A stretch of 12,153 nucleotides of DNA from contig WFOW01000127.1 of assembly GCA_015487895.1 (NCBI GenBank), positions 1-12,153 on the forward strand, given 5' to 3'. This DNA comes from Gammaproteobacteria bacterium (GTDB lineage: Bacteria > Pseudomonadota > Gammaproteobacteria > S144-34). The position numbers and the translations under genes are program-made. The notes under the pieces were generated by a model. The model saw nothing but the letters and a program-made list of their open reading frames with translations. It did no database searches and was not told the DNA's origin. Numbering within the stretch: position 1 is the first letter of the stretch; each line of letters opens with the position of its first letter. This document shows, in pieces, positions 1-12,037 of the stretch.

Positions 1-711
1 GCCCCGGTGCGCCGCTACATCGCCTACTTCCAGGCGTACACCAACACCTACGGCGAGGTGGAGCGCCTGCGCGCGCTCTACGACGAGGCGCTCGCCGAGC
101 CCGACGTGGTGGGGCTCTCGGTGGGCACACGCCCCGACTGCGTGCCGCCCGAGGTTCTGGATCTGCTGGCGGGCTACCGCGAGCGCGGGCTGGAGGTCTG
201 GCTCGAGCTCGGGCTGCAGTCGAGCTTCGACGCCACGCTCGCGCGCGTCAACCGCGGCCACGGATTCGCCGAGTACCGCGAGACCGTGCGCGCCGCGCGC
301 CGGCGCGCCATCCCCGTGTGCACCCACCTCATCGTCGGCCTGCCGGGCGAGGGCGCGCATCACGCGCGCGTGACGCTCGAGCGGGTGCTGGAGCTCGGCG
401 TCGAGGGGCTCAAGCTGCACCCGCTGCACGTGGTGCGCGGCACGCGGCTCGCGCGGGAATGGCGCGCCGGCGGCTACCGGCCCCTCGAGCTCGAGGAGTA
501 CGTGGGGCTCGCGGCCGAGCTCGTCGCCCGCACGCCCTGGGAGGTGGTCTTCCACCGCCTCACGGGCACGGCCCCGCGCGGGCTGCTGCTCGCGCCCGAG
601 TGGTGCGCGCGCAAGTGGGTCGTGCTCAACGGCATCGAGGCGGCGCTGCGCGGGGCCGGGCTGCGCCAGGGCGCCCTCGCCGGCGCCCCGCTCGCGGAGG
701 CGCTCGCGTGA
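1..711 (+). CDS. TIGR01212/YhcC-type radical SAM protein, 3' part only
   Basis: This is the C-terminal 236 residues of a radical SAM protein of the TIGR01212 (YhcC, Elp3-like) family. Recognisable family blocks are YIAYFQAYTNTYG at the very start, GLSVGTRPDC, ELGLQS, RVNRGH, HLIVGLPGEG, LKLHPLHVVRGT, FHRLTG and KWVVLN near the end. The reading frame is open to the first base and the CxxxCxxC motif that binds the 4Fe-4S cluster is missing, so roughly 75-85 N-terminal residues lie upstream of the window; the GTG at 7 is internal, not the start. The stop codon overlaps the ubiU start (GTGA), so the two genes are very probably co-translated. The substrate of this family is not known to me. The tight link to ubiU suggests a role connected with anaerobic metabolism, but this is inference. 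Confidence 0.88.
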   Translation, partial: APVRRYIAYFQAYTNTYGEVERLRALYDEALAEPDVVGLSVGTRPDCVPPEVLDLLAGYRERGLEVWLELGLQSSFDATLARVNRGHGFAEYRETVRAARRRAIPVCTHLIVGLPGEGAHHARVTLERVLELGVEGLKLHPLHVVRGTRLAREWRAGGYRPLELEEYVGLAAELVARTPWEVVFHRLTGTAPRGLLLAPEWCARKWVVLNGIEAALRGAGLRQGALAGAPLAEALA

Positions 712-1712
712 GGCGGCCGGAGCTCGTCTGCCCCGCCGGCACCCTGCCGGCCCTGCGCGCGGCGGTCGAGGGCGGCGCCGACGCCGTCTACGTCGGCCTG
801 CGCGGGGCCACCAACGCGCGCAACTTCCCGGGCCTCAACCTGACGCCGCGCGAGCTCGCCGAGGGCGTGCGCCATGCCCACGCGGCGGGCGCCCGCGTCT
901 TCCTCGCCCTCAACACCTATCCCGGCCCCGAGGAGTGGCCGGAGGCCGAGGCGGCGGTGGACGCCGCGGCCGAGGCGGGCGTCGACGCCCTCATCGCCGC
1001 CGATCCCGGCCTGCTCGCCCGCGCGCGCGAGCGCCACCCGGGGCTCGCCCTGCACCTCTCGGTGCAGGGCTCGGCCACCAACCGCCGGGCCATCGGCTTC
1101 TACCACGAGCGGCTCGGCATACGCCGCGTGGTCCTGCCGCGGGTGCTGTCGCTGGCGCAGGTGCGGCGCCTGGTCGAGCGGCTCCCCGTCGAGGTCGAGG
1201 TCTTCGCCTTCGGCAGCCTGTGCGTGATGGTCGAGGGCCGCTGCATGCTCTCCTCCTATGTCACGGGCGAGTCGCCGAACCGCTGCGGCGTGTGCTCGCC
1301 GGCGAAGGCGGTGCGCTGGGAGGAGGGCCCGGAGGGGCGCAGCGTGCGGCTGAACGGCGTGCTCGTCGAGCGCTTCGGCTCCGGCGAGCCGGCCGGCTAT
1401 CCCGTGCTGTGCAAGGGGCGCTTCCGGGTGGGCGGCCACGTCTACCACGCCATCGAGGAGCCCACGAGCCTCAACGTGCTCGACATCCTGCCGGAGCTGG
1501 TGCGCTGCGGGGTGGCCGCCCTCAAGGTGGAGGGCCGCCAGCGCAGCCCCGCCTACGTGGCGCAGGTCACCCGGGTGCTGCGCGAGGCGCTCGACGCCTG
1601 CCTCGCCGATCCCGACGGCTACCGGCCGGATCCCGCCTGGGTGGCGGCCCTCGACCGCGTCTCCGAGGGCAGCACGCACACCCTCGGGGCGCTCGACCGC
1701 CCGTGGATGTGA
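708..1712 (+). CDS. ubiU: UbiU, O2-independent ubiquinone biosynthesis Fe-S protein (U32 family)
   Basis: UbiU is a U32 'peptidase'-family protein that, together with UbiV, carries out the hydroxylation steps of ubiquinone synthesis without oxygen. The 334-residue product is close to the 331 of E. coli UbiU. It opens with PELVCPAGTLPALRAAVEGGADAVYVG and contains the signature region around EGRCMLSSYVTGESPN. Four cysteines at residues 172, 179, 196 and 235 have the same spacing as the E. coli cluster ligands 169, 176, 193 and 232. I chose the GTG at 708: it overlaps the upstream stop and has GGAGG at 696-700, seven bases ahead, and the protein then begins where the family begins. A longer open frame runs upstream to 318 but only as a shadow of the radical SAM gene. 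The stop is 10 bases before ubiV. Confidence 0.95.
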   Translation: MRRPELVCPAGTLPALRAAVEGGADAVYVGLRGATNARNFPGLNLTPRELAEGVRHAHAAGARVFLALNTYPGPEEWPEAEAAVDAAAEAGVDALIAADPGLLARARERHPGLALHLSVQGSATNRRAIGFYHERLGIRRVVLPRVLSLAQVRRLVERLPVEVEVFAFGSLCVMVEGRCMLSSYVTGESPNRCGVCSPAKAVRWEEGPEGRSVRLNGVLVERFGSGEPAGYPVLCKGRFRVGGHVYHAIEEPTSLNVLDILPELVRCGVAALKVEGRQRSPAYVAQVTRVLREALDACLADPDGYRPDPAWVAALDRVSEGSTHTLGALDRPWM

Positions 1713-1722
1713 GGCGGCCGCC

Positions 1723-2628
1723 GTGCGCCTGAGCCTCGCGCCCATCCCCTACTTCTGGCCGCGCGAGCGCGTCGAGGCCTTCTACGAGGCCGCCGCGGGC
1801 TGGCCCGTGGACGTGGTCTACCTCGGCGAGGTGGTGTGCGGCAAGCGCCTGGAGCTGCGGCTGGAGGACTGGATCGCCCTCGGCGAGCGGCTCGCCGCGG
1901 CCGGCAAGGAGGTGGTCCTCTCCACCCAGGCGCTGATCGAGGCCGAGTCCGAGCTCGCGCGCATGGAGCGGCTGTGCCGCAACGGCCGCTTCGCCGTCGA
2001 GGCCAACGACCTCGGGGCGGTGCACGTGCTCGCGGAAGCGGGTGTGCCCTTCGTCGTCGGCCCCCACGTCAACGTCTACAACGCGGCCACCCTGGGGCTG
2101 CTCGCCGGGCTCGGGGCGCGCCGCTGGGTGCCGCCCGTGGAGCTTCCGGGGCGGGTGCTGGCGCGGGTGCTCGCCGGACGGCCCCGCGGCCTCGAGGTCG
2201 AGGTCACGGCCTACGGGCGGCTCGCGCTCGCCTTCTCCGCGCGCTGCTTCACCGCCCGTGCCGACAACGTCCCCAAGGACGCCTGCGAGCTGCGCTGCCG
2301 CCACGATCCCGAGGGCCGCCTCATGGAGACCCAGGACGGCCGGGCGCTGTTCGTCGCCAACGGCGTCCAGATCCAGTCGGCCGCGCCCTGCAACCTCGCC
2401 GCCGAGCTCGGCGCCATGCGGGAGATGGGGGTGGACCTGCTGCGCGTGGTTCCGGACGCGAGCACCACCGCCGAGGCGGTGGGCATCCTCGCCGAGGCCG
2501 CAGCGGGACGGCGCGAGCCCGCCCAGGCCGCCGCCGATCTCGCCGCCCTGCGGCCCGGTGTCGGTGCCTGCAACGGCTATTGGCACGGCCGCGCCGGGCT
2601 CGACTGGCGCGGCGCGCTGCCGGCCTGA
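1723..2628 (+). CDS. ubiV: UbiV, O2-independent ubiquinone biosynthesis Fe-S protein (U32 family)
   Basis: UbiV is the partner of UbiU in a heterodimer, each subunit holding a 4Fe-4S cluster, needed for anaerobic ubiquinone hydroxylation. The product has 301 residues, the usual length, and begins MRLSLAPIPYFWPRERVEAFY. The cluster cysteines are visible at 39, 175, 188 and 192; Cys39 is at the same number as in E. coli, and the 13- and 4-residue spacings of the last three also match. Family blocks include VYLGEVVCGKR, PHVNVYNAATL and the C-terminal GYWHGRAGLDW. The start is a GTG with GAGG at 1711-1714 eight bases ahead. It follows ubiU after 10 bases and surely shares its mRNA. Its stop lies only three bases from the stop of the opposing ubiT gene. 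Confidence 0.95.
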   Translation: MRLSLAPIPYFWPRERVEAFYEAAAGWPVDVVYLGEVVCGKRLELRLEDWIALGERLAAAGKEVVLSTQALIEAESELARMERLCRNGRFAVEANDLGAVHVLAEAGVPFVVGPHVNVYNAATLGLLAGLGARRWVPPVELPGRVLARVLAGRPRGLEVEVTAYGRLALAFSARCFTARADNVPKDACELRCRHDPEGRLMETQDGRALFVANGVQIQSAAPCNLAAELGAMREMGVDLLRVVPDASTTAEAVGILAEAAAGRREPAQAAADLAALRPGVGACNGYWHGRAGLDWRGALPA

Positions 2629-2631
2629 GGC

Positions 2632-3180
2632 TCAGGGCTGGCGCGCGGGCACCTGCGCGGCCGGCACGCCCGCGCCCTGCGCCAGGGCCGCGGCGGCGGC
2701 GCGCAGCAGGCGCGCCGCGCCCGCCGCGGCCGCGAGGCCGCCCAGGCGGGCGCCGAGGGCGGCCCGCAGCATCGTCTCGGGGGTCCAGTCGAGGGCGTCG
2801 AGGCGGTTCTTGAGGTAGAGCCCCGTCTCGGTGTCCCCCTCCAGCACGAGGCGCCGCTGGAAGAAGAGGGTGTCCGGATCCTCGGCGCGCAGGGCGAGCG
2901 CGAGGAAGGCCTCCACCGGGCCGCGGATGCGCACCTCGGCATGGGCAGGGTCGGCCGGCCACAGCCAGCGCCCCCGGGCCACCAGGGCCAGCGTGCGCCC
3001 CGCGTCCGTCAGCTCGAGCGCCACCACCCGGCCCTCGACCGCGTCGAGGTCGGCGAGGGCGTCCTGCGCGGCGAGCAGGCGCGAGGCGGCGAGCGCGAGC
3101 GCCGCCGCCTCCGCCGGCGCGGGCAGGAGGCGCACGGCCGCGCGCACGAGCGCGGGTGGCGGTGCCGGGAGCCGCAGCAT
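2632..3180 (-). CDS. ubiT: UbiT, SCP2-domain lipid carrier of anaerobic ubiquinone synthesis
   Basis: UbiT is an SCP2-fold accessory factor that binds prenyl-quinone intermediates and is required with UbiU/UbiV when oxygen is absent. The 182-residue product is very rich in Ala, Arg and Leu, but keeps the strongly conserved block at about residues 100-125 (EDPDTLFFQRRLVLEGDTE, then GLYLKN), nearly identical to E. coli UbiT. The SCP2 domain spans about 38-130 and the C-terminal tail is a low-complexity Ala/Arg helix. I place the start at the ATG at 3180 because the N-terminus then aligns with E. coli UbiT within five residues; the next in-frame ATG (3228) would add an Arg-rich leader and sits inside the FNR-like box. 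No Shine-Dalgarno precedes 3180. The gene points towards ubiV, tail to tail, so it has its own promoter. Confidence 0.92.
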   Translation of the reverse strand: MLRLPAPPPALVRAAVRLLPAPAEAAALALAASRLLAAQDALADLDAVEGRVVALELTDAGRTLALVARGRWLWPADPAHAEVRIRGPVEAFLALALRAEDPDTLFFQRRLVLEGDTETGLYLKNRLDALDWTPETMLRAALGARLGGLAAAAGAARLLRAAAAALAQGAGVPAAQVPARQP

Positions 3181-3214
3181 GGGTGCATACTGGTGCGCTC
3201 GGGGCCGCCGCGTC

Positions 3215-3228
3215 TTGACCCGGATCAT
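3215..3228. promoter_or_regulatory. FNR/ANR-type box between ubiT and copA
   Basis: TTGAC-CCGG-ATCAT matches the FNR/ANR consensus TTGAT-N4-ATCAA in 8 of 10 specific positions. Its centre is 41.5 bp from the ubiT start codon, the classic class II activator distance if transcription begins at or near that codon; a weak -10-like CAGTAT (3192-3187, reverse strand) fits this. Control of anaerobic ubiquinone genes by an FNR-type factor makes biological sense. The site is a sequence match only, and a chance match cannot be excluded. Confidence 0.6.
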
Positions 3229-3249
3229 TGCGGGTGTCGCCGGCCGCCC

Positions 3250-3280
3250 TGGACCTGACACCGGCGCCAAGGTTTAGAGT
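3250..3280 (+). promoter_or_regulatory. MerR/CueR-type copper-responsive promoter of copA
   Basis: A -35 like TGGACC (3250-3255) and a -10 like TAGAGT (3275-3280) are separated by 19 bp, the over-long spacer typical of MerR-family activated promoters. The CueR-like half-sites ACCTGAC (3253-3259) and CCAAGGT (3267-3273) span 21 bp, as in known copA operators; the right half fits well, the left half is degenerate. The expected start of transcription, about 3287, is one base before the copA ATG. No cueR gene is present in the window. Confidence 0.65.
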
Positions 3281-3287
3281 CGTCGTC

Positions 3288-5534
3288 ATGGACACCACGA
3301 GCGAGCGCACCGTGCGCCTTTCCATCTCCGGCATGAGCTGCGCCGGCTGCGTCAAGAGCGTCGAGGACGCGCTGCGCGCGGTCCCCGGGGTGCGGGAGGC
3401 GAGCGTCAACCTCGCCGAGCGCAGCGCCGTGGTCGTCGGCACCGCGCCGGCCGGGGCGCTCATCGAGGCCGTACGCGGGGCGGGCTACGACGCCGCCGAG
3501 CTCACGGGCCTCGACGACGACGAGCGCCGCGAGCGGCAGGAGCGCGAGCACTACCGGCGCCTCATGCGCCAGTTCGTGGTGGCCACGGCCTGGGGCCTGC
3601 CCCTGCTCGCCGGCGCCTACCTGGACTGGTTCCCGGGCTACGCCACGCCGGGCGGGCGCCTCTTCTGGCTCGCGGCCGGCCTGGTGACGGCGGCGGTCAT
3701 GTACTACAGCGGCCGCCACTTCTTCATCGGCGCCTGGAAGGCCTTCCGCGCCCACAACGCCAACATGGACACCCTCATCGCGCTGGGCACCGGCAACGCC
3801 TGGCTCTACTCGATGGGCGTGGCGCTGTTCCCGGACCTGGTGCCGGAGGTCGCGCGCGAGGCCTACTACGACGCGGCCGCCATCATCATCGGCTTCATCA
3901 ACCTGGGCCAGGCGCTGGAGATGCGCGCGCGCGGGCGCACGTCGGAGGCCATCCGCCGGCTCATCGGCCTGCAGCCCAAGACGGCGCGCGTCATCCGCAA
4001 CGGCCGGGAGATGGACGTGCCCATCGAGGAGGTGGGCCTCGACGAGACCATCCGCGTGCGGCCCGGCGAGCGCATCCCGGTCGACGGCGTCATCATCGAG
4101 GGCCGCTCCAGCGTGGACGAGTCCATGCTCACGGGCGAGCCCATGCCGGTGGAGAAGGGCCCCGGCGACGAGGTCATCGGCGGCACCATCAACGTCTCGG
4201 GCACCTTCCTCTACCAGGCCAAGCGCATCGGGCGCGACACCGTGCTCGCCCAGATCATCGAGATGGTGCGCCGCGCCCAGGCCACCAAGCCGCCCATCGG
4301 GCGCCTGGTGGACAAGGTGGCCTCGGTCTTCGTGCCGACGGTGCTGATCGTGGCCGTCGTCACCTTCCTCGCCTGGTTCAACCTGGGCGGCGAGGAGCGC
4401 CTCAGCTACGCGGTGGTGACCTCGGTCACCGTGCTCGTGATCGCCTGCCCCTGCGCCCTGGGTCTCGCCACGCCCATCTCCATCATGGTGGGCGTCGGCA
4501 AGGCCGCCGAGCACGGCATCCTGATCCGCAACGGCGAGGCCCTGCAGCGCGCCTGCGAGCTCACGGCCGTGGTGCTCGACAAGACCGGCACCGTGACCGA
4601 GGGCAGACCCAGCGTCACGGAGCTCGTGCCCGCCGAGGGCCATGACGAGGACGAGCTCCTGCGGCTCGCGGCCGGCGTCGAGCGCGGCTCCGAGCATCCC
4701 CTCGCCCACGCCATCCTCGAGGCGGCCTCCGCGCGCGGCCTCGAGGCCCCGGAGCCCGAGGGCTTCGAGGCCATCGCCGGCCACGGCGTGCGCGCGCGCG
4801 TGGACGGCCGCCTGGTGCTGTTCGGCAACGCGCGGCTGATGGCGCGCGAGGGCGTGGACGTCTCGGTGCTGGAGGCGCGCGCCGCCGAGCTCGCCGCGCG
4901 CGCCCGCACCGCCATGTACCTGGCGGCCGACGGCAAGGCGGTGGGGGTGGTCGCCGTCGCCGACCGCATCAAGCCGGACGCCGCCGACGCCATCCGGCGC
5001 CTGCACGCGCGCGGCCTCAGGGTGGTGATGCTCACCGGCGACCAGCGCCGCACCGCCGAGGCGGTGGCGCGCGAGGTCGGCGTGGACGAGGTCGTCGCCG
5101 AGGTGCTGCCCCAGGACAAGGCCGCCAAGGTGGCCGAGCTCCAGGCGCGCGGCGAGGTGGTGGCCATGGTCGGCGACGGCATCAACGACGCCCCCGCGCT
5201 CGCGCAGGCCGACGTCGGCTTCGCCATCGGCTCCGGCACCGACGTCGCCATCGAGAGCGCCGACGTCACCCTCATGCGCGGCTCCCTGCACGGGGTGGCC
5301 GACGCGATCGAGATCTCGCGCGCCACGCTGCGCAACATCAAGCAGAACCTGTTCGGCGCCTTCGTCTACAACACGCTCGGCATCCCCGTCGCCGCCGGCG
5401 CGCTCTATCCCTTCACGGGCATGCTGCTCAACCCCATCGTCGCCGGCGCCGCCATGGCCATGTCCTCGGTGACGGTGGTGACCAACGCCAACCGGCTGCG
5501 CTTCTTCCGGCCGTCCGCGGAGGGCCGCGCATGA
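3288..5534 (+). CDS. copA: CopA, P1B-1-type Cu(I)-exporting ATPase
   Basis: This inner-membrane P-type ATPase pumps Cu(I) out of the cytoplasm. The 748-residue product has one N-terminal metal-binding HMA domain with GMSCAGC (Cys18, Cys21), the actuator TGE (282-284), the membrane Cys-Pro-Cys site (387-389), the phosphorylated Asp431 in DKTGT, the SEHPLA nucleotide-binding motif, TGD (583-585) and GDGIND (629-634). The P1B-1 copper signatures in the last two helices are also present: Tyr694-Asn695 and Met723 with Ser727. All catalytic residues are intact. The start is the ATG at 3288, just ahead of the first HMA strand; a TTG at 3228 in frame would lie upstream of the promoter. There is no Shine-Dalgarno and the promoter ends eight bases before the ATG, so the mRNA may be leaderless. 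Its stop overlaps the next gene. A cbb3-oxidase-supply role (FixI/CopA2) cannot be excluded, but the CueR-like promoter favours detoxification. Confidence 0.95.
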
Positions 5535-5899
5535 GCCCCGCCGATCTCGCCGTCAACCTCGCGGGCGTCGCGCTCATCGCCTTCATCGTCTGGTGGTTCT
5601 GGCTCTCGCACGGGCGCACCGAGCGCGCCGCCGGGACGGGCCCCGTCGAGATCGTGGCCGACGAGGGCGTCTACACGCCCTCGCGCATCGAGGTGCCCGC
5701 GGGCAGGCCCGTCGTGCTGCGCTTCCTGCGCAAGGACCCGAGCCCGTGCGCCGAGAAGGTGCTGATCGACCGCATCGGGGTGGCGGTGGAGCTCCCGGTG
5801 GGCGAGCCGAAGGACGTGGTCGTCACCCTGCCGGAGCCCGGCGAATACGAGTTCACCTGCGACATGCGCATGTACCGCGGCGTCCTCGTCGCGCGCTGA
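5531..5899 (+). CDS. Membrane-anchored cupredoxin-like copper-binding protein
   Basis: The 122-residue product has one hydrophobic helix at about residues 7-25 and then a cupredoxin-like beta domain (PF13473 type). Typical family features are [22 protein letters not shown] and [10 protein letters not shown]. Cys73, Cys110, Met112 and Met114 are the likely copper ligands. The ATG overlaps the copA stop (ATGA) and has GGAGGG at 5519-5524, six bases ahead, so it is translationally coupled to copA and very probably handles the same metal. The positive residues lie after the helix (His27, Arg29, Arg32) while the N-terminus has only an acidic residue, so the side of the membrane on which the domain sits is uncertain. 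It could take Cu(I) from CopA in the periplasm or deliver it in the cytoplasm. Confidence 0.85.
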
Positions 5900-6067: not shown

Positions 6068-6099
6068 GGAATAGGCGGGGGCGCTCGCGCGTCTCTGGG
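6068..6099 (+). promoter_or_regulatory. ECF-sigma-type promoter of the PEGA/SHOCT lipoprotein gene
   Basis: GGAATA (6068-6073), 16 bases, then CGTCT (6090-6094). Over 32 positions, 26 are identical to the element before the secreted DsrE gene (8613-8644), including the spacing. The likely transcription start is about 6101, giving a leader of roughly 20 bases with the ribosome-binding site AGGAGG at 6109-6114. The best candidate to read it is the ECF sigma factor encoded at 7688-8263. Confidence 0.75.
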
Positions 6100-6122: not shown

Positions 6123-6623
6123 ATGATGCGAACGCACCGCCTCGCCACGGCGCTTGCCGCCGCGACCCTGGCCTTCGGCGCCACAGGCTGTGTGGGGCCG
6201 CTGCGGGAGTCCGGTGGCGGTGTCCACACCATTCGTGTTCTCTCCGAGCCGCCGGGCGCCACCGTGCTGGCCGACGGCCGCGAGCTCGGCACGACCCCGC
6301 TCGTGATCCGGCCGGGCGAGGTCTTCCCGGCGCGCTTCGTGGGCCGCGAGTACCGCTATGCCGGCACGCTCGCCCTGCGCCGGCCAGGATGCAGGCCCTG
6401 GAGCGTGCAGGTGGACGATGCCGTGCTGGCGAGGGACGTCGTCGCCAGGCTCGAGTGCGGCCCCGGGGCAGCGGTGCCGGCATCCGTCCGCGAGAAGCCC
6501 ACCGTGAGCGCCGGGGATCCCGTGGCGGAACGGCTGCGCCGGGCGCGGCGCCTGCACGAGGAGGGGCTCATCACGGACGAGGAATACCGCGCCCTGCGCC
6601 GGCGGATTCTCGAGAGCCTGTAG
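6123..6623 (+). CDS. Lipoprotein with PEGA and SHOCT domains
   Basis: The 166-residue product starts with a lipoprotein signal: basic MMRTHR, a hydrophobic Ala/Leu stretch and a lipobox-like ATGC with Cys23. The residue at -3 is Ala, a weaker lipobox than usual. Residues 36-63 (RVLSEPPGATVLADGRELG and following) form a PEGA-type beta unit, often found in surface or envelope proteins. Residues 136-165 (RRARRLHEEGLITDEEYRALRR) are a C-terminal SHOCT helical hairpin, usually an oligomerisation element. Start: ATG at 6123 with AGGAGG eight bases ahead; the ATG at 6126 is equally possible. It has its own ECF-type promoter and converges with the anti-sigma gene, 82 bases away. The molecular role is unknown; an envelope-stress product of the sigma regulon is my inference. 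Confidence 0.85.
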   Translation: MMRTHRLATALAAATLAFGATGCVGPLRESGGGVHTIRVLSEPPGATVLADGRELGTTPLVIRPGEVFPARFVGREYRYAGTLALRRPGCRPWSVQVDDAVLARDVVARLECGPGAAVPASVREKPTVSAGDPVAERLRRARRLHEEGLITDEEYRALRRRILESL

Positions 6624-6705: not shown

Positions 6706-7425
6706 TCAGACCTTGATGTACACCCAGCCCTGCTGGAGGCGGGTCACGATCTGCTCCAGGGCGCCGGGGATCACCTCCGCCTCCGGGAGGAGGCGCACGT
6801 CGACACCCATGAGGCGGAACTTCTCGATGGTGCGGCTGCAGGCGAGGATGCGCACGTTGTCGTAGCGGTGCGCGAGGCGCCGCAGGCGCGCCGCGTACGG
6901 GGAGCGGTCCGCCCGCAGCAGGTTGAGCCCCTCGGTGTTGGCCACGATCTCGACCTGCACGATGCGGCCCTCCGCGCGGCTCGTCCGGAGCAGCCGCTCC
7001 ATCCGGTCGAGCGCCGCCCCGAAGCGGGCCGGGTCGCTGGTGCTCACGTGCAGGATGATCCGTCGGGTCTCCGAGGCCGGCGTGAGGGCCAGGGCCCGGA
7101 AGGCGAGCGCCTCGGCCTGCAGGGTCGCGTCCCGGGCCATCCAGCCGGAGAGGGTGCCCACCGCCAGCAGGCAGAGCGCCGCGGCCAGCGCGCGCCACCG
7201 GCGCGCTCCCCCCTGGGGGCGGCCCCGCTCGGGACGCGGCGGCGAGGCGTAGGCGTGCTGCACGAGCTCCTTCACCGCACGCAGCTCGCACACGCGCCGC
7301 GCCACCTCGCCGTCGCTGCAGGCGAGGCGGTGCATCCGGGCGTGATCCTCCTGATCCAGCTCGCCGTCCACGAAGGCGTTCAGGCGTTCCTCCTCGGGCG
7401 GACAGCCGTGATCCTCTCTAGCCAT
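6706..7425 (-). CDS. Transmembrane anti-sigma factor with extracytoplasmic DsrE-like domain
   Basis: The 239-residue product has three parts. Residues 10-60 resemble an anti-sigma domain (RLNAFVDGELDQEDHARMHRLAC..., a common opening of ECF anti-sigma proteins); it has HxxxC (His32, Cys36) but not the second Cys of the classical zinc motif. An Arg-rich linker (63-78) is followed by one membrane helix at about 79-97; by the positive-inside rule the N-terminus is cytoplasmic. Residues 121-239 form a DsrE-like domain (RRIILHVSTSD, VEIVANTEGLNLLRAD, NVRILACSRT, LEQIVTRLQQGWVYIKV) clearly homologous to the secreted protein at 8732-9178, including the conserved Cys196. The ATG at 7425 has GGGAG 7-8 bases ahead. 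The likely target is the ECF sigma factor encoded upstream on the same strand. I do not recognise this fusion as a named family. Confidence 0.85.
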   Translation of the reverse strand: MAREDHGCPPEEERLNAFVDGELDQEDHARMHRLACSDGEVARRVCELRAVKELVQHAYASPPRPERGRPQGGARRWRALAAALCLLAVGTLSGWMARDATLQAEALAFRALALTPASETRRIILHVSTSDPARFGAALDRMERLLRTSRAEGRIVQVEIVANTEGLNLLRADRSPYAARLRRLAHRYDNVRILACSRTIEKFRLMGVDVRLLPEAEVIPGALEQIVTRLQQGWVYIKV

Positions 7426-7632: not shown

Positions 7633-7656
7633 CCCGCGGCCATCCCTGGCCGCGGG
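7633..7656 (-). repeat. Perfect hairpin 1 (9-bp stem, 6-base loop)
   Basis: CCCGCGGCC (7633-7641) pairs with GGCCGCGGG (7648-7656). It abuts hairpin 2 with no base between them. On the reverse strand it is the second of the two structures met by transcription coming from the sigma gene. No T-run follows in that direction. Confidence 0.6.
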
Positions 7657-7683
7657 GAAGCCCTGAAATTTATTCAGGGCTTC
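7657..7683 (-). terminator. Perfect hairpin 2 just after the sigma gene
   Basis: GAAGCCCTGAA (7657-7667) pairs with TTCAGGGCTTC (7673-7683) around a five-base AT loop, an 11-bp perfect stem. It begins four bases after the sigma stop codon on the reverse strand. There is no T-run, so it may be a partial terminator, an attenuator or an RNA 3'-end stabiliser that sets the sigma to anti-sigma ratio. The function is inferred. Confidence 0.5.
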
Positions 7684-7687
7684 CTGC

Positions 7688-8263
7688 CTATTTGACCCGC
7701 CGCATCACCGTTACCGTTCCCCGCGCCGCCCTGCGGCCCGCGCCGGGTCTTCCCTCCTCGAGGAGCATCCCCCTCAGCGCCCGGCGCGCCCGGCACAGCC
7801 GGCTCATCACCGTCCCCACGGGTATCCCCAGCGCCTCCGCCGCCTCGGCGTAGGAGTAGCCCTCCAGGTCGACCAGGGCGACCACCTCGCGCTGGGCTGG
7901 GGGGATGCGCATCATGGCCGCCCTGACCCGCTCGACCGTGGCCTCACGCTCGCACTCCCATTCCGGTGTCGCCGTCTCGGCATGGGAGTGCGGATGGATC
8001 TCCTCGGGCACCTCGCGTCCCGCCCGCCGCAGGTGGTCCCGCCAGCAGTTCGCCATGATGCGCACCACCCAGCGCTCCACCTGCTCCACGCCGCGGAGCT
8101 GGCCCGCCCCCTGCAGCGCCTTGGCCGCCGCCTGCTGCACCAGATCGTCCGCCAGGTACGGGTCGTTGCACCAGGCGAACGCGAGGCGGTAGAGCATCTC
8201 GCGGCGCTGCTCCAGGTGACGGCGCACGGCCCCTATCCGGCGCAGCCGCTCGATCGGCCCCAT
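7688..8263 (-). CDS. ECF-type RNA polymerase sigma factor
   Basis: The 191-residue product has the two domains of an extracytoplasmic-function sigma factor. Sigma region 2 spans about 20-82 (EMLYRLAFAWCNDPYLADDLVQ... and VERWVVRIMANCWRDHLRR, the -10 recognition part). Sigma region 4 spans about 118-167 (RIPPAQREVVALVDLEGYSY, then AEALGIPVGTVMSRLCRARRALR, the helix-turn-helix that reads the -35). Between them is a His/Glu-rich linker (HPHSHAET). The start at 8263 has AGGAGG eight bases ahead within a longer GGA repeat; longer upstream frames are not needed. Its own upstream region carries the same GGAATA-16-CGTC element as two other genes, so it is probably autoregulated. The adjacent DsrE-bearing anti-sigma factor is its likely partner. 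Confidence 0.95.
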   Translation of the reverse strand: MGPIERLRRIGAVRRHLEQRREMLYRLAFAWCNDPYLADDLVQQAAAKALQGAGQLRGVEQVERWVVRIMANCWRDHLRRAGREVPEEIHPHSHAETATPEWECEREATVERVRAAMMRIPPAQREVVALVDLEGYSYAEAAEALGIPVGTVMSRLCRARRALRGMLLEEGRPGAGRRAARGTVTVMRRVK

Positions 8264-8361: not shown

Positions 8362-8391
8362 TTAGGACGTGAGCAGCGCGGTTTCTATTCC
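8362..8391 (-). promoter_or_regulatory. ECF-type promoter of the sigma gene (autoregulatory)
   Basis: Read on the reverse strand: GGAATA (8391-8386), 16 bases, CGTC (8369-8366), followed by CTAA. The distance between the two elements is exactly that of the lipoprotein and DsrE promoters, while the spacer sequence differs. The likely start of transcription is about 8358, leaving a leader of some 95 bases before the sigma ATG. Confidence 0.7.
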
Positions 8392-8612: not shown

Positions 8613-8644
8613 GGAATAAGCGGGCGCGGTCGTGCGTCTTTAGG
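8613..8644 (+). promoter_or_regulatory. ECF-type promoter of the DsrE-porin unit
   Basis: GGAATA (8613-8618), 16 bases, CGTCT (8635-8639), then TTAGG. It is 26/32 identical to the element at 6068-6099. The likely start of transcription is about 8646, giving a leader of about 86 bases before the DsrE ATG. Confidence 0.75.
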
Positions 8645-8731: not shown

Positions 8732-9178
8732 ATGCTGAGAAGAAGACTGCTCGCGCTGGCGGCCGCCGCGGCCGCGGGGCTCGCCTGGTTCCAGCCGGCT
8801 CCGGCGGCGGAGGAGAAGCCCTTCGCCGACGTCAAGGTCGTCCTTCAGATCAGCGATCCGCAGCCCATGAAGCAGACGCTGGTGCTGAACGTCGCCAACA
8901 ACCTGCTGCGCCACTACGGCCCGGACAAGGTCGACATCGAGATCGTCGCCTTCGGGCCGGGGCTGCGGCTGCTGTTCGCCGACAACATCAACCGCGGCCG
9001 GATCAAGGGCCTCGCCGACAACGGCGTGCGTTTCGCGGCCTGCAACAACACCATGCGGAAGATGACCAAGAAGCTGGGGCGCGAGCCCGTGCTCGTGCCG
9101 CAGGCCACGCGGGTGAGCGCCGGCGTGGCGCGCATCATCGAGCTTGTGCAGAAGGGCTACATCCTGGTCAAGCCCTGA
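8732..9178 (+). CDS. Secreted DsrE-like protein
   Basis: The 148-residue product has a clear Sec signal peptide (MLRRRLLALAAAAAAGLAWF, cleavage after Ala25 or Ala26 in PAPAA) and then a DsrE/F-like domain to the end: KVVLQISD, VDIEIVAFGPGLRLLFAD, GVRFAACNNT with Cys104, LVPQATRVSAGVARIIELVQKGYILVKP. DsrE-fold proteins commonly transfer or bind sulfur through a cysteine and often form oligomers; most are cytoplasmic, but this one is exported. Its closest relative in the window is the extracytoplasmic half of the anti-sigma factor (6706-7425), with matching blocks and the same Cys. The start has GGAGGAG at 8717-8723, eight bases ahead. It is followed by the porin gene after 61 bases and shares the ECF-type promoter at 8613. 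The true substrate is unknown. Confidence 0.88.
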   Translation: MLRRRLLALAAAAAAGLAWFQPAPAAEEKPFADVKVVLQISDPQPMKQTLVLNVANNLLRHYGPDKVDIEIVAFGPGLRLLFADNINRGRIKGLADNGVRFAACNNTMRKMTKKLGREPVLVPQATRVSAGVARIIELVQKGYILVKP

Positions 9179-9239: not shown

Positions 9240-10634
9240 ATGAAGGTGCAGACCAAGCGGACGGCCCTGGCCGCGGCCTGCGCGGCCTCGGCCTTGCTTG
9301 CGAGCGGTGAGGCGCTGGCGGTCAACTGGCTGAAGATGCAGGGCACCGAGCCCCCCGGCGCGGCGGCCCGCGCGCGTGTCTGGGGCTTCATCCAGCCCGA
9401 GTACCAGCAGACCAAGGGGACCAAGCTCAGGGCCGGCGGCTGGGCCGGGCAAAGGGCGATCTTCAACCAGGTCCGCCCCGACCTCAAGAGCGATTCCGGC
9501 TTCAACATCATCCGCGCCCGTCTCGGCGTGCGCGGCACCGGCTTCCCGCTCGACAGCAAGGTCAACTATTTCTTCCTCATGGAGGCCGGCAACAACGGCA
9601 TCACGCGCCAGGGCGGGGGCAGCGTCAAGATCACCGACGCCAGCGTCACCCTCAACCACATCAAGGGCCTGCGCATCCGGATCGGCCAGTTCAAGACGCC
9701 GGGCGCGGACGAAGGGCTGCGGGCCATCCACGTCTTCGACTACATCAACTTCACCAACGCCACCAACCAGCTCCTGCTGGAGCGCTTCTTCGACGGTGAC
9801 GGTTCCCAGGACGCACCGGGCCAGCCCGTCAACAGGCCGAATGGCCCCGTGAGCGCCTTCCGCGACGTCGGCATCCAGCTCTTCGACTGGTTCACGACCG
9901 GGAGCTGGGAGCACACCTATGCGGTGATGGTGGGCAACGGCAACGGCATCACCCGCGGGGACAACGACGACAACCGCGAGCTGTACCTGTACTGGGCCTC
10001 GGAGCTGCTCTTCCCCGGCGCGAGCCCCTTCCCCTCGGGCGCGCACCTGGCTCCGCCCTCGTGGTCGGCCGACCACCACGGCCCGCGCGGGGCGCGCTAC
10101 CAGGGGCTCAAGCTCTTCGCCTGGTACCAGGACGGCAAGCGCACGCTCACCAAGGAGAACCCGGGCGAGTACGACCGCACGCGCTGGGGCTTCGGCTTCA
10201 CCTACCGCAAGGGCAAGTGGCGCGGCGGTGCGGAGTACATCCGGGCCAAGGGCATGATCTTCAGCGGCACGGACGGCGGCGCCCTGCCCGGGGCTGCCAA
10301 CAACGCCGGGACAGCGGTGGCCGACTTCAACGTGGTGACGGACGGCAAGGCCGACGGCTGGTACGTCGACGTCGGGTACCTGGTGCACCCCACGGTCGAG
10401 CTCGATCTGCGCTACGACGTCCTCAACCGCAACACGCAGTCGGCGAGCCTGGAGCGCCAGTTCGAGACGTGGACGCTCGGGATGCAGTACTTCTTCAACA
10501 AGAAGAGCCGCCTCATCCTCAACTACGAGTTCCGCGACGCCGAGGCGCCGAACCTGCCCGGGACCCATCCGGCGAACAGGATCCTGTCTGGCATGGACGA
10601 CCGCCTGTCGGGGCAGCTCCTCATCATCTTCTGA
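9240..10634 (+). CDS. OprO/OprP-type porin (phosphate-selective porin family)
   Basis: The 464-residue product has a signal peptide (MKVQTKRTALAAACAASALLASGEALA, cut after Ala27) and a beta-barrel ending in Phe (GQLLIIF), as outer-membrane proteins do. Features of the O/P porin family (PF07396) include GFIQPEYQ, FNIIRARLGVRG, LRIRIGQFKTP, FRDVGIQLFDWF, TRWGFGFTYRKGKW, GWYVDVGYLVHPTVELDLRYD and GMQYFFNKKSRLILNYEFRD. Alternating aromatic/polar strands run through the length. The ATG at 9240 has GGGAGGAG at 9227-9234. The family is named for phosphate or polyphosphate channels, but specificity cannot be read from sequence, and other anions are possible. It lies 61 bases after the DsrE gene with no visible terminator between them, so it is probably co-transcribed under ECF control. 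A strong terminator follows. Confidence 0.88.
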   Translation: MKVQTKRTALAAACAASALLASGEALAVNWLKMQGTEPPGAAARARVWGFIQPEYQQTKGTKLRAGGWAGQRAIFNQVRPDLKSDSGFNIIRARLGVRGTGFPLDSKVNYFFLMEAGNNGITRQGGGSVKITDASVTLNHIKGLRIRIGQFKTPGADEGLRAIHVFDYINFTNATNQLLLERFFDGDGSQDAPGQPVNRPNGPVSAFRDVGIQLFDWFTTGSWEHTYAVMVGNGNGITRGDNDDNRELYLYWASELLFPGASPFPSGAHLAPPSWSADHHGPRGARYQGLKLFAWYQDGKRTLTKENPGEYDRTRWGFGFTYRKGKWRGGAEYIRAKGMIFSGTDGGALPGAANNAGTAVADFNVVTDGKADGWYVDVGYLVHPTVELDLRYDVLNRNTQSASLERQFETWTLGMQYFFNKKSRLILNYEFRDAEAPNLPGTHPANRILSGMDDRLSGQLLIIF

Positions 10635-10687: not shown

Positions 10688-10715
10688 GGCTCTCATGCTG
10701 TTTTCGTGGGCAGGG
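10688..10715 (+). repeat. Left terminal inverted repeat of the ISL3 element
   Basis: The end begins GGCTCT and shares the core TTCGTGGG region with the right end: positions 1-6, 9-10, 13-15, 17-23 and 25-28 are identical. The transposase stop codon (10693-10695) lies inside this repeat. Confidence 0.85.
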
Positions 10716-11961
10716 TCTCGCGCCCCGGCAGCGGCGGGCAGAAGCCGCCGAGCTTGAGGAATGCGAGGCTGATGAACGCCTCTACGTTGCGGAAGCCGAA
10801 GGCGATGCGGTGCAGCAGCCGCAGCTGCGTGTTGCAGGCCTCGATGCGGGCGTTGGTCAGGCGGTGACGAAGGGTGGCCTCGATGCGTGCGCGGTGGCGG
10901 CGCACGGTGCGGGCAAGGGCGACGAAGGGCGCAAGGCGCGAGCGGCTGGCCCAGGCGAGCCAGCGCTCGAGCCGTGCGAGGCCGGCCTCCGGGGTGGGGG
11001 CCTGGAAGACCGAGCGCAGGGCCTCCTTGAGGAGGTAGGCGCGGTAGAGGGGGCGGTTGGTGCGGGCCAGCCCGGCCAGGCGCTCGCGCTCGGCCTCGGC
11101 GAGGCGCTCGGGGGCCTTCCAGAGGACCCATCGGGCGCGCTGCAGGTCGCGGGCCTCGGCGCGGTGGCCGCTGCGGCGCAGCCGCCGCCACAGCTCGCGG
11201 CGGACGGCATCGACGGCGCGCGTGGCCCATTGGACCACGTGGAAGGGGTCGAGGCAGACGGTCGCCTGCGGGGCGTAGGCGCGCACCACGGGGGCGATCC
11301 ACTCGGCCGCATCGGCGCTGACCAGCCGCAGCCGCCGGGCCCGCTCCGGGCCGAGGGCCTCGAAGAAGCCGGCCACGGCGGCGCGGTCGCGCCCCGGGGC
11401 CAGCCACACCAGCCGCCCGGTGTCATGGTCGACCACCACCGTCAGATAACGCTGCCCGCGCCGGTAGCTGAACTCGTCGATGCCGATGCGCCTCAGCCCC
11501 GCCAGCGGGTCACGCCCGGCCCGGGCCTCGGCCCCCACCCGCTCGACCATCGCCCCCACCGCACGCCAGCCGACGCGCATCAGCTCGCAGACGGCCGTGC
11601 GCGAGGTCCGCACCGCAAGCCAGGCGCACTGGTCCTCGAAGGCCTTTGTGTGCCGCGCCCCCGCGCGCGCCCACGGCACCTCGGCCACCACCACCCCGTG
11701 CTCCGGACAGCGCACCCGCACCGCCTCGGCCTCCAGCCAGACCCGCACCGTGCCCATGTCCAGCCCGCGCCAGCGCCGCCGCCCCCCGCCACGGTCATAG
11801 CCCGCACAGCGCCGACCGCACCGGCTGCAGCGCCGCCGCCCACGCCGCAGCGGCCGCACGGCGACCCGCAGCGCCTGCCCGGCCTCGTCGAAATCGACCT
11901 CCTCGACCACGACATCCTTGAGTCCCAGCAGCTTGCGCCATACTCTGCTCCTGGTCGCCAT
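10693..11961 (-). CDS. ISL3-family transposase
   Basis: The 422-residue product catalyses cut-and-paste movement of the element. An N-terminal zinc-binding part has CSRCGRRC (Cys45, Cys48, Cys52) and CPEH (Cys85, His88), followed by a helix-turn-helix region. The DDE catalytic core is complete: Asp162 in GIDEFSYRRGQRYLTVV, Asp238 in CLDPFHVVQW and Glu374 in NARIEACN. The C-terminal signature LHRIAFGFRNVEAFI is typical of the family. I take the ATG at 11961, preceded by a GGAGG-rich site, rather than the in-frame ATG at 12000. There are no internal stops or frameshifts, so the enzyme may be active. Confidence 0.93.
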   Translation of the reverse strand: MATRSRVWRKLLGLKDVVVEEVDFDEAGQALRVAVRPLRRGRRRCSRCGRRCAGYDRGGGRRRWRGLDMGTVRVWLEAEAVRVRCPEHGVVVAEVPWARAGARHTKAFEDQCAWLAVRTSRTAVCELMRVGWRAVGAMVERVGAEARAGRDPLAGLRRIGIDEFSYRRGQRYLTVVVDHDTGRLVWLAPGRDRAAVAGFFEALGPERARRLRLVSADAAEWIAPVVRAYAPQATVCLDPFHVVQWATRAVDAVRRELWRRLRRSGHRAEARDLQRARWVLWKAPERLAEAERERLAGLARTNRPLYRAYLLKEALRSVFQAPTPEAGLARLERWLAWASRSRLAPFVALARTVRRHRARIEATLRHRLTNARIEACNTQLRLLHRIAFGFRNVEAFISLAFLKLGGFCPPLPGRETLPTKTA

Positions 11962-12037
11962 CGCCTCCCTCCTCGAGCATCGATTCAGCTTTGGGTTCAC
12001 GCCGAATCATGCCCGGGAGGCGGGGCGACCTCCTACC

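Follow-up and report, generated by a model that had tools for sequence, protein, structure and literature searches.

The window, a stretch of 12,153 nucleotides from a Gammaproteobacteria bacterium, carries on its minus strand an open reading frame (6706..7425; ATG at 7425, stop at 6706) that is a real gene and codes for a 239 residue protein, interpreted as a transmembrane anti-sigma factor with a predicted periplasmic DsrE domain. The gene for a 191 residue ECF sigma factor with regions 2 and 4 (7688..8263, minus strand; TIGR02937, 78.3 bits against a cut-off of 42.9) lies immediately upstream on the same strand, and the intergenic gap between the two is 262 bases. Divergent from the sigma gene, on the plus strand, are a gene for an exported DsrE-like protein (8732..9178; Pfam DsrE, 18.3 bits, under the cut-off; signal-peptide-like start by eye) and, at its 3' side, a gene for a porin (about 9240..10634, the start being taken from the open reading frame; Porin_O_P, E 2.8e-11). 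Pattern scanning places an ECF promoter-like site, GGAATA-N16-CGTC, ahead of each of these gene pairs, at 8366..8391 on the minus strand toward the sigma and anti-sigma genes, and at 8613..8638 on the plus strand toward the exported DsrE and porin genes. A third such site (6068..6093, plus strand) lies 29 bases ahead of a gene downstream of the anti-sigma gene and pointing toward it (6123..6623, plus strand), which codes for a PEGA/SHOCT protein by family matches, with a lipoprotein-like start by eye, and which is a predicted third target.

Right after the sigma stop codon, the minus-strand RNA has a strong 12-bp hairpin (7656-7684; fold z-score -4.4) within the unusually long gap between the sigma and anti-sigma genes, and this hairpin could shift the ratio of the two proteins. 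Elsewhere in the window, an SCP2-domain gene lies beside, and divergent from, a pair of Peptidase_U32 genes (636-3270), presumably the UbiU-UbiV-UbiT arrangement of anaerobic ubiquinone synthesis. A heavy-metal P-type ATPase with an HMA domain is followed by a cupredoxin-like protein (3228-5899), probably a copper-handling pair, and an ISL3-family transposase on the minus strand (10693-12000) adjoins the porin gene.

Class I anti-sigma factors have an N-terminal helical domain and one membrane helix, and their genes lie beside a co-directional ECF gene. In the window protein, the N-terminal anti-sigma-type domain (residues 12–59; 7249..7392, minus strand) is predicted with high confidence to contain three helices (H12-19, H25-37 and H39-59); the HxxxCxxC zinc motif is absent, the zf-HC2 match is under the cut-off, and residues 4–41 match the profiles of MucA (E 0.33) and RseA (E 0.44) only weakly. 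A membrane segment follows at residues 79–97 (7135..7191, minus strand), as judged from hydropathy and predicted structure. The net charge is +5 before this segment and 0 after it, which fits an inside-to-outside orientation that would place the N-terminus inside and the DsrE domain in the periplasm. Of 31 family members, 29 have their hydropathy maximum at this segment (P0049 and P0055 have it elsewhere), and positive charge is higher before than after the segment in all 29. Residues 121–239 (6709..7065, minus strand), the putative sensor, have the DsrE fold according to structure prediction, profile and fold comparison, and the closest solved structure is MTH1491 (1l1s). The domain misses the Pfam PF02635 cut-off (21.2 versus 22.7 bits), and six of 31 family members match that profile at E 0.01; the outer domain is therefore classed as DsrE-like by fold and profile and is not called a PF02635 member. 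A sequence-only reading had proposed this order of anti-sigma domain, membrane helix and DsrE-like outer domain with a conserved Cys196; the predicted structure and the alignment bear it out, and no structure unlike DsrE was found for the outer domain.

Cys196 (codon 6838..6840, minus strand) is the sole cysteine of the DsrE domain and, by alignment and predicted structure, ends the strand formed by residues 191–196. It is placed after the fourth strand and aligns with a cysteine of 1l1s, at what we take to be the position of the active cysteine of DsrE itself. A family search yielded 177 matching proteins at E<=1e-5, of which 120 were aligned together with P0002 to give 121 sequences. Among the matches listed, Cys196, Gly166, Leu212, Trp234 and Tyr236 are present in 121 of 121, His126 in 120 and Cys46 in 118; the residues near Cys196 (H126, G166, R171, W234 and Y236) are kept in 120–121 of the 121, every DsrE domain contains exactly one cysteine, and the HxxxCxxC motif occurs within the first 75 residues of only one sequence. 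Judged from sequence, a lone invariant cysteine would suit a sulfur carrier, or a persulfide or thiosulfonate sensor, better than an internal disulfide; the Cys-S-thiosulfonate that one DsrE homolog is reported to form with tetrathionate (excerpts of PMC4175335) lends weight to this interpretation.

Gene neighborhoods were compared in the best 80 of 300 confirmed GTDB genome stretches. Many of these 80 loci come from organisms named as sulfur oxidizers (Thiobacillus, Sulfuricella, Sulfuriferula, Thiohalobacter), and named carriers include Sulfuriferula multivorans TTN, Thiobacillus thioparus DSM 505 and Sulfuricella sp. T08. An HMM search places an ECF sigma gene directly upstream and on the same strand in all of the best 80 loci, with the matched segments of sigma and anti-sigma factor no more than 20 bases apart in 75; the domain order beside ECF genes, for which a profile search had been suggested from the sequence, thus recurs in 80 of these 80. 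An exported DsrE gene is divergent in 60 of the best 80 loci, with a porin gene behind it in 37 of the 60. The DsrE gene is at another place in three of the 80, and an exported DsrE above the score limit is absent from 17, where the flanking DNA is very short in some. The exported DsrE of the window and the DsrE domain of the anti-sigma factor are homologous (hhalign E 7.4e-27, 30% identity), and Cys104 of the former aligns with Cys196 of the latter. The cysteine at this position is present in 97% of 72 exported DsrE sequences, and 60 of the 72 pass a rough signal-peptide test, in which the window's own sequence was mis-framed.

Several loci depart from this layout. The sigma/anti-sigma pair in L059, L066, L067, L071 and L106, which form one subgroup, is not beside exported DsrE and porin genes; it is flanked by a different conserved cluster on one side and, on the other, by genes that look groEL/groES-like by eye. 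Two sigma/anti-sigma-DsrE pairs are present in each of L050 (5453-8386) and L113 (4654-9454), and the genomes G082, G131 and G198 each contain three full-length fusion copies. On a Paracoccus denitrificans plasmid (L184, 3809 and 4328-5090), GGAATAA...CGTA sites occur by a sigma factor, and the anti-sigma-like neighbor, compared by eye, shares the style of the inner domain and has a different C-terminal part, another sensor. The neighbor of a related Azospirillum sigma factor has, again by eye, a similar N-terminal motif and a different C-terminal part.

GGAATA-N16-CGTC emerged, facing both ways, from a dyad search of 55 sigma/DsrE intergenic regions. Its word pair GGAA...CGTC occurs in 47 regions toward the sigma gene and in 54 toward the DsrE gene, against an average of 0 to 0.2 in shuffles, and a relaxed pattern is found in 61/61 regions toward sigma and 60/61 toward DsrE, a set that overlaps the discovery set. 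The 80 loci and the window (81 sequences, 831 kb) contain 152 sites, of which 78 precede sigma genes, 64 precede exported DsrE genes and 10 lie elsewhere; the reversed pattern, scanned at spacing 16 only, gives none in the same 831 kb. The site ahead of the PEGA/SHOCT gene is seen in the window only among the 81 sequences. The window's own genome (2.3 Mb) has six sites, three of them in the window, and none with the reversed control; those at L116, L120 and L121 have no convincing target and were treated as chance. The regulon predicted for the window's organism comprises only the sigma operon, the exported DsrE and porin genes, and the PEGA protein gene. The site matches the published ECF26 promoter consensus (-35 GGAAT, -10 CGTC) of the sulfite response in Sinorhizobium and Starkeya (excerpts of PMC6527743), and the sigma factor is named ECF26-like because of this match, the name resting on the promoter and not on the sigma sequence.

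Of 370 sampled class genomes, 73, from 41 families, carry the fusion at full length, defined as a match that starts at model position 15 or earlier and reaches position 235 or later. soxB is found in 72 of these 73 versus 90 of the 297 others (Fisher 8.5e-30, phylogeny ignored) and dsrA in 59 versus 65 (counts not phylogenetically independent), and all 73 have soxB or dsrA. As a control, soxB occurs in 133 of 256 genomes with RseA versus 29 of 114 without it (Fisher 1.2e-6, phylogeny ignored); RseA is thus associated as well, but far more loosely than the fusion. In a phylum sample, four of 397 genomes carry the full-length fusion, all in the window's class. A wider spread to other classes was considered and rejected, as 16 places in 14 genomes, presumed to be Alphaproteobacteria, are without the anti-sigma domain where read. 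Ten of these places, in nine of the genomes (L174-L183), code for DsrE proteins that are related to the sensor domain and whose starts look, by eye, like secretion signals, and the sigma HMM gave no match on those ten stretches.

In some relatives, sox genes adjoin the sigma/anti-sigma pair. The gene order in L098 is sigma, anti-sigma, soxX, soxY, soxZ, soxA, soxB and a yeeE-like gene, the last called from NCBIfam matches below cut-off, and L096 has the same cluster pattern. The divergent side of L061 contains a yeeE-like gene, soxY, a gene of the soxZ cluster and soxA; promoter-like sites facing both ways lie in between. Two candidate proteins, in L038 and L100, group with SoxB.

The promoter pattern was also scanned in two sets of genomes. 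The first set, scanned with a pattern ending in CGTCT, comprises 14 genomes (G002, with the DsrE part only, at a contig end, and 13 others that carry the whole fusion) and yields 38 sites versus 6 with the reversed pattern. The second set was scanned with a slightly different pattern ending in CGTC; seven fusion genomes give 44 sites versus 19 reversed, a moderate excess, and six fusion-less soxB genomes give 10 versus 21 reversed. A site within 3 kb upstream of soxB and on its strand is present in 8 of the 21 scanned fusion genomes, five of the 14 in the first set (G082, G084, G121, G164 and G288) and three of the seven in the second (G225, G247 and G373), versus none of the six fusion-less soxB genomes. 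Such positions account for 11 of the 82 fusion-genome sites, against an expected 0.05. In the other 13 of the 21 fusion genomes, no site lies within 3 kb upstream of soxB, and two of these 13, G002 and G057, lack a soxB match. Many sites outside the core locus fall inside open reading frames, some of them queC-like by eye, and are probably chance occurrences.

The gene just past a site was typed over NCBIfam cut-offs as SoxX in G082, G084 and G164 and as SoxB in G288, and over Pfam cut-offs as Sulf_transp in G084, G382 and, where the site is doubtful, G082, as TusA in G121 and as a thioredoxin-like protein in G124. No family was found for one G082 protein downstream of a site, and the SoxB identity in G084 and G121 is taken from the class-genome soxB survey. 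G082 and G198 each have a site inside a gene that looks queC-like by eye, with YeeE encoded ~270 bases downstream, and these were not counted as transporter targets; the sulfur-transporter targets counted as robust are those in G084, G382 and L061. When the sox loci of the window's own genome and of the sister genome G001 were scanned with a relaxed pattern, each yielded a single weak match, which in neither case lies upstream of the sox genes on their strand; the window organism's sox contig starts 1.5 kb before the soxB match, and the operon start may be missing, and in G001 about 1.3 kb is visible beyond a gene that is soxX-like by eye. The link to sulfur that had been guessed from the sequence is supported by the co-occurrence with soxB and dsrA, by the sox genes adjoining the pair in some genomes, and by the shared promoter preceding sox or sulfur-transport genes in some relatives.

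We propose that the protein is a sulfur-sensing anti-sigma factor in the membrane, partner to an ECF26-like sigma factor and equipped with a single-cysteine periplasmic DsrE sensor, that switches GGAATA-N16-CGTC promoters, and we assign this reading a probability of roughly 0.68. At rest, by analogy with its class, the N-terminal helical domain would keep the sigma factor at the membrane. The signal would be periplasmic reduced sulfur such as thiosulfate, or a derived sulfane-sulfur or thiosulfonate carrier, upon which Cys196 would be modified or the DsrE domain would bind a sulfur-loaded partner, possibly the exported DsrE from the adjoining gene. The sigma factor would then be released, presumably through conformational change or proteolysis, and the free sigma factor would transcribe its own operon and the exported DsrE and porin genes from GGAATA-N16-CGTC promoters, and in some relatives also sox genes and a gene for a YeeE-type sulfur transporter. 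The topology, which is read from charge, and likewise sigma binding, promoter use, the identity of the signal and the release step are predicted parts of this model. Tentatively, the exported DsrE may be a carrier that hands sulfane sulfur or a thiosulfonate, formed outside the cytoplasm, to Cys196, such that sulfur flow itself, through trans-persulfidation from carrier to sensor, would open the sigma switch for sox.

It is also conceivable, if rather unlikely, that the DsrE domain serves solely for docking, and that the exported DsrE, by binding to it, signals how much sulfur it carries or how abundant it is, possibly as negative feedback, without chemistry at Cys196 of the anti-sigma factor. 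Consistent with docking, the exported DsrE, itself a predicted sigma target, is divergent in 60 of the best 80 loci with a promoter-like site in common, the exported and anti-sigma DsrE families are homologous (E 7.4e-27), and a DsrE homolog has been reported in a heterocomplex with its partner TusA (excerpts of PMC4175335). However, docking alone makes it hard to explain why Cys196, the domain's only cysteine, is invariant in 121/121 sequences among the matches listed, and 17 of the best 80 loci have no exported DsrE above the score limit, though several of them hold little upstream DNA. The signal could instead be sulfite, as reported for the ECF26 systems of Sinorhizobium and Starkeya, with an indirect link to sox through the sulfite that accompanies thiosulfate oxidation. 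The promoter consensus is identical to that of the ECF26 sulfite regulon (excerpts of PMC6527743 and PMC3511301), yet sulfite dehydrogenases are not among the typed targets, which belong to the sox, sulfur transport, TusA and thioredoxin-like groups, nor among the core DsrE and porin targets, and we consider sulfite sensing unlikely.

Two more general roles appear highly improbable. A single reactive cysteine would be compatible with oxidation sensing, and the protein could be a general periplasmic thiol-redox or oxidative-stress sensor with no tie to sulfur oxidation; soxB, however, is present in 72 of 73 fusion genomes versus 133 of 256 genomes with RseA, a generic envelope-stress anti-sigma factor, and among ten typed targets there is no oxidative-stress gene except that for one thioredoxin-like protein. 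RseA and MucA resemble the anti-sigma/DsrE protein in overall anatomy. The weak MucA and RseA profile matches at residues 4–41 (E 0.33 and 0.44) would agree with an envelope-stress factor of the RseA type whose DsrE fold acts merely as a protease-gated plug, a role that is at odds with the retention of Cys196, H126, G166, R171, W234 and Y236 in 120–121 of 121 sequences among the matches listed and with the strong tie of the fusion to sox/dsr genomes.

Several described systems share parts of the proposed sulfur-sensing switch. The ECF26 factors RpoE1/RpoE4 of Sinorhizobium meliloti and SigE/RpoE1 of Starkeya novella likewise combine an ECF sigma factor with an adjacent anti-sigma gene, respond to sulfur compounds and use -35 GGAAT and -10 CGTC elements, and ECF26 control of sulfite oxidation has been reported (excerpts of PMC6527743 and PMC3511301). 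Their targets, as far as these excerpts go, center on sulfite dehydrogenases, whereas the targets predicted here are the exported DsrE and porin genes and, in some relatives, also sox; the same excerpts assign most ECF26 anti-sigma factors to the COG5662 type and make no mention of a DsrE domain, the putative sensor here. The protein resembles class I anti-sigma factors (RseA, MucA, RsiW and RskA) in its predicted N-terminal helical domain, its predicted single membrane helix and the adjacent co-directional ECF gene (excerpts of PMC7406223), and differs in the outer DsrE fold and in the zinc motif, present in one of 121 sequences among the matches listed. SoxR/SoxT1B of Hyphomicrobium denitrificans also reports external sulfur to sox and includes a YeeE-like protein, but it consists of a repressor and a transporter-like protein, with no sigma/anti-sigma pair in the excerpts of PMC11582611, and TspS/TspR, a sigma-54 two-component control, is a further example of sulfur-sensing regulation (excerpts of PMC12194929). 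Set beside the DsrE/DsrF/TusD/YchN fold, the DsrE domain here is predicted to be periplasmic and not a cytoplasmic sulfurtransferase, and it is tethered by a membrane helix to an anti-sigma-type domain. A precedent from another phylum is found in Arcobacter butzleri. Its ECF sigma-2 is reported to raise sox expression, but the word DsrE is absent from the available text of PMC3445524.

Among the matches listed for DsrE or sulfane sulfur with anti-sigma and sox or sigma in the open-access literature, there is no DsrE-type anti-sigma factor. A text match to 'dsre' in PMC3511301 is the reporter DsRed in the reference list, and the DsrE and anti-sigma words in the excerpts of PMC10512742 refer to other proteins. 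The parts of the system are of known kinds, and the anti-sigma/DsrE combination appears to be a new variation on them.

The sensing of extracytoplasmic reduced sulfur and the induction of sox in beta- and gammaproteobacterial oxidizers seem poorly known. If the proposed reading is true, a DsrE-gated ECF switch, whose fusion is present in 73 of the 370 class genomes, would provide a sensor together with a promoter that is already defined and a regulon that is predicted, and Cys196 would offer a one-residue handle on sensing. ECF26-type control would be widened from sulfite detoxification to sulfur lithotrophy, and sulfur oxidizers would sense external sulfur by a membrane switch and then activate the genes for its use.
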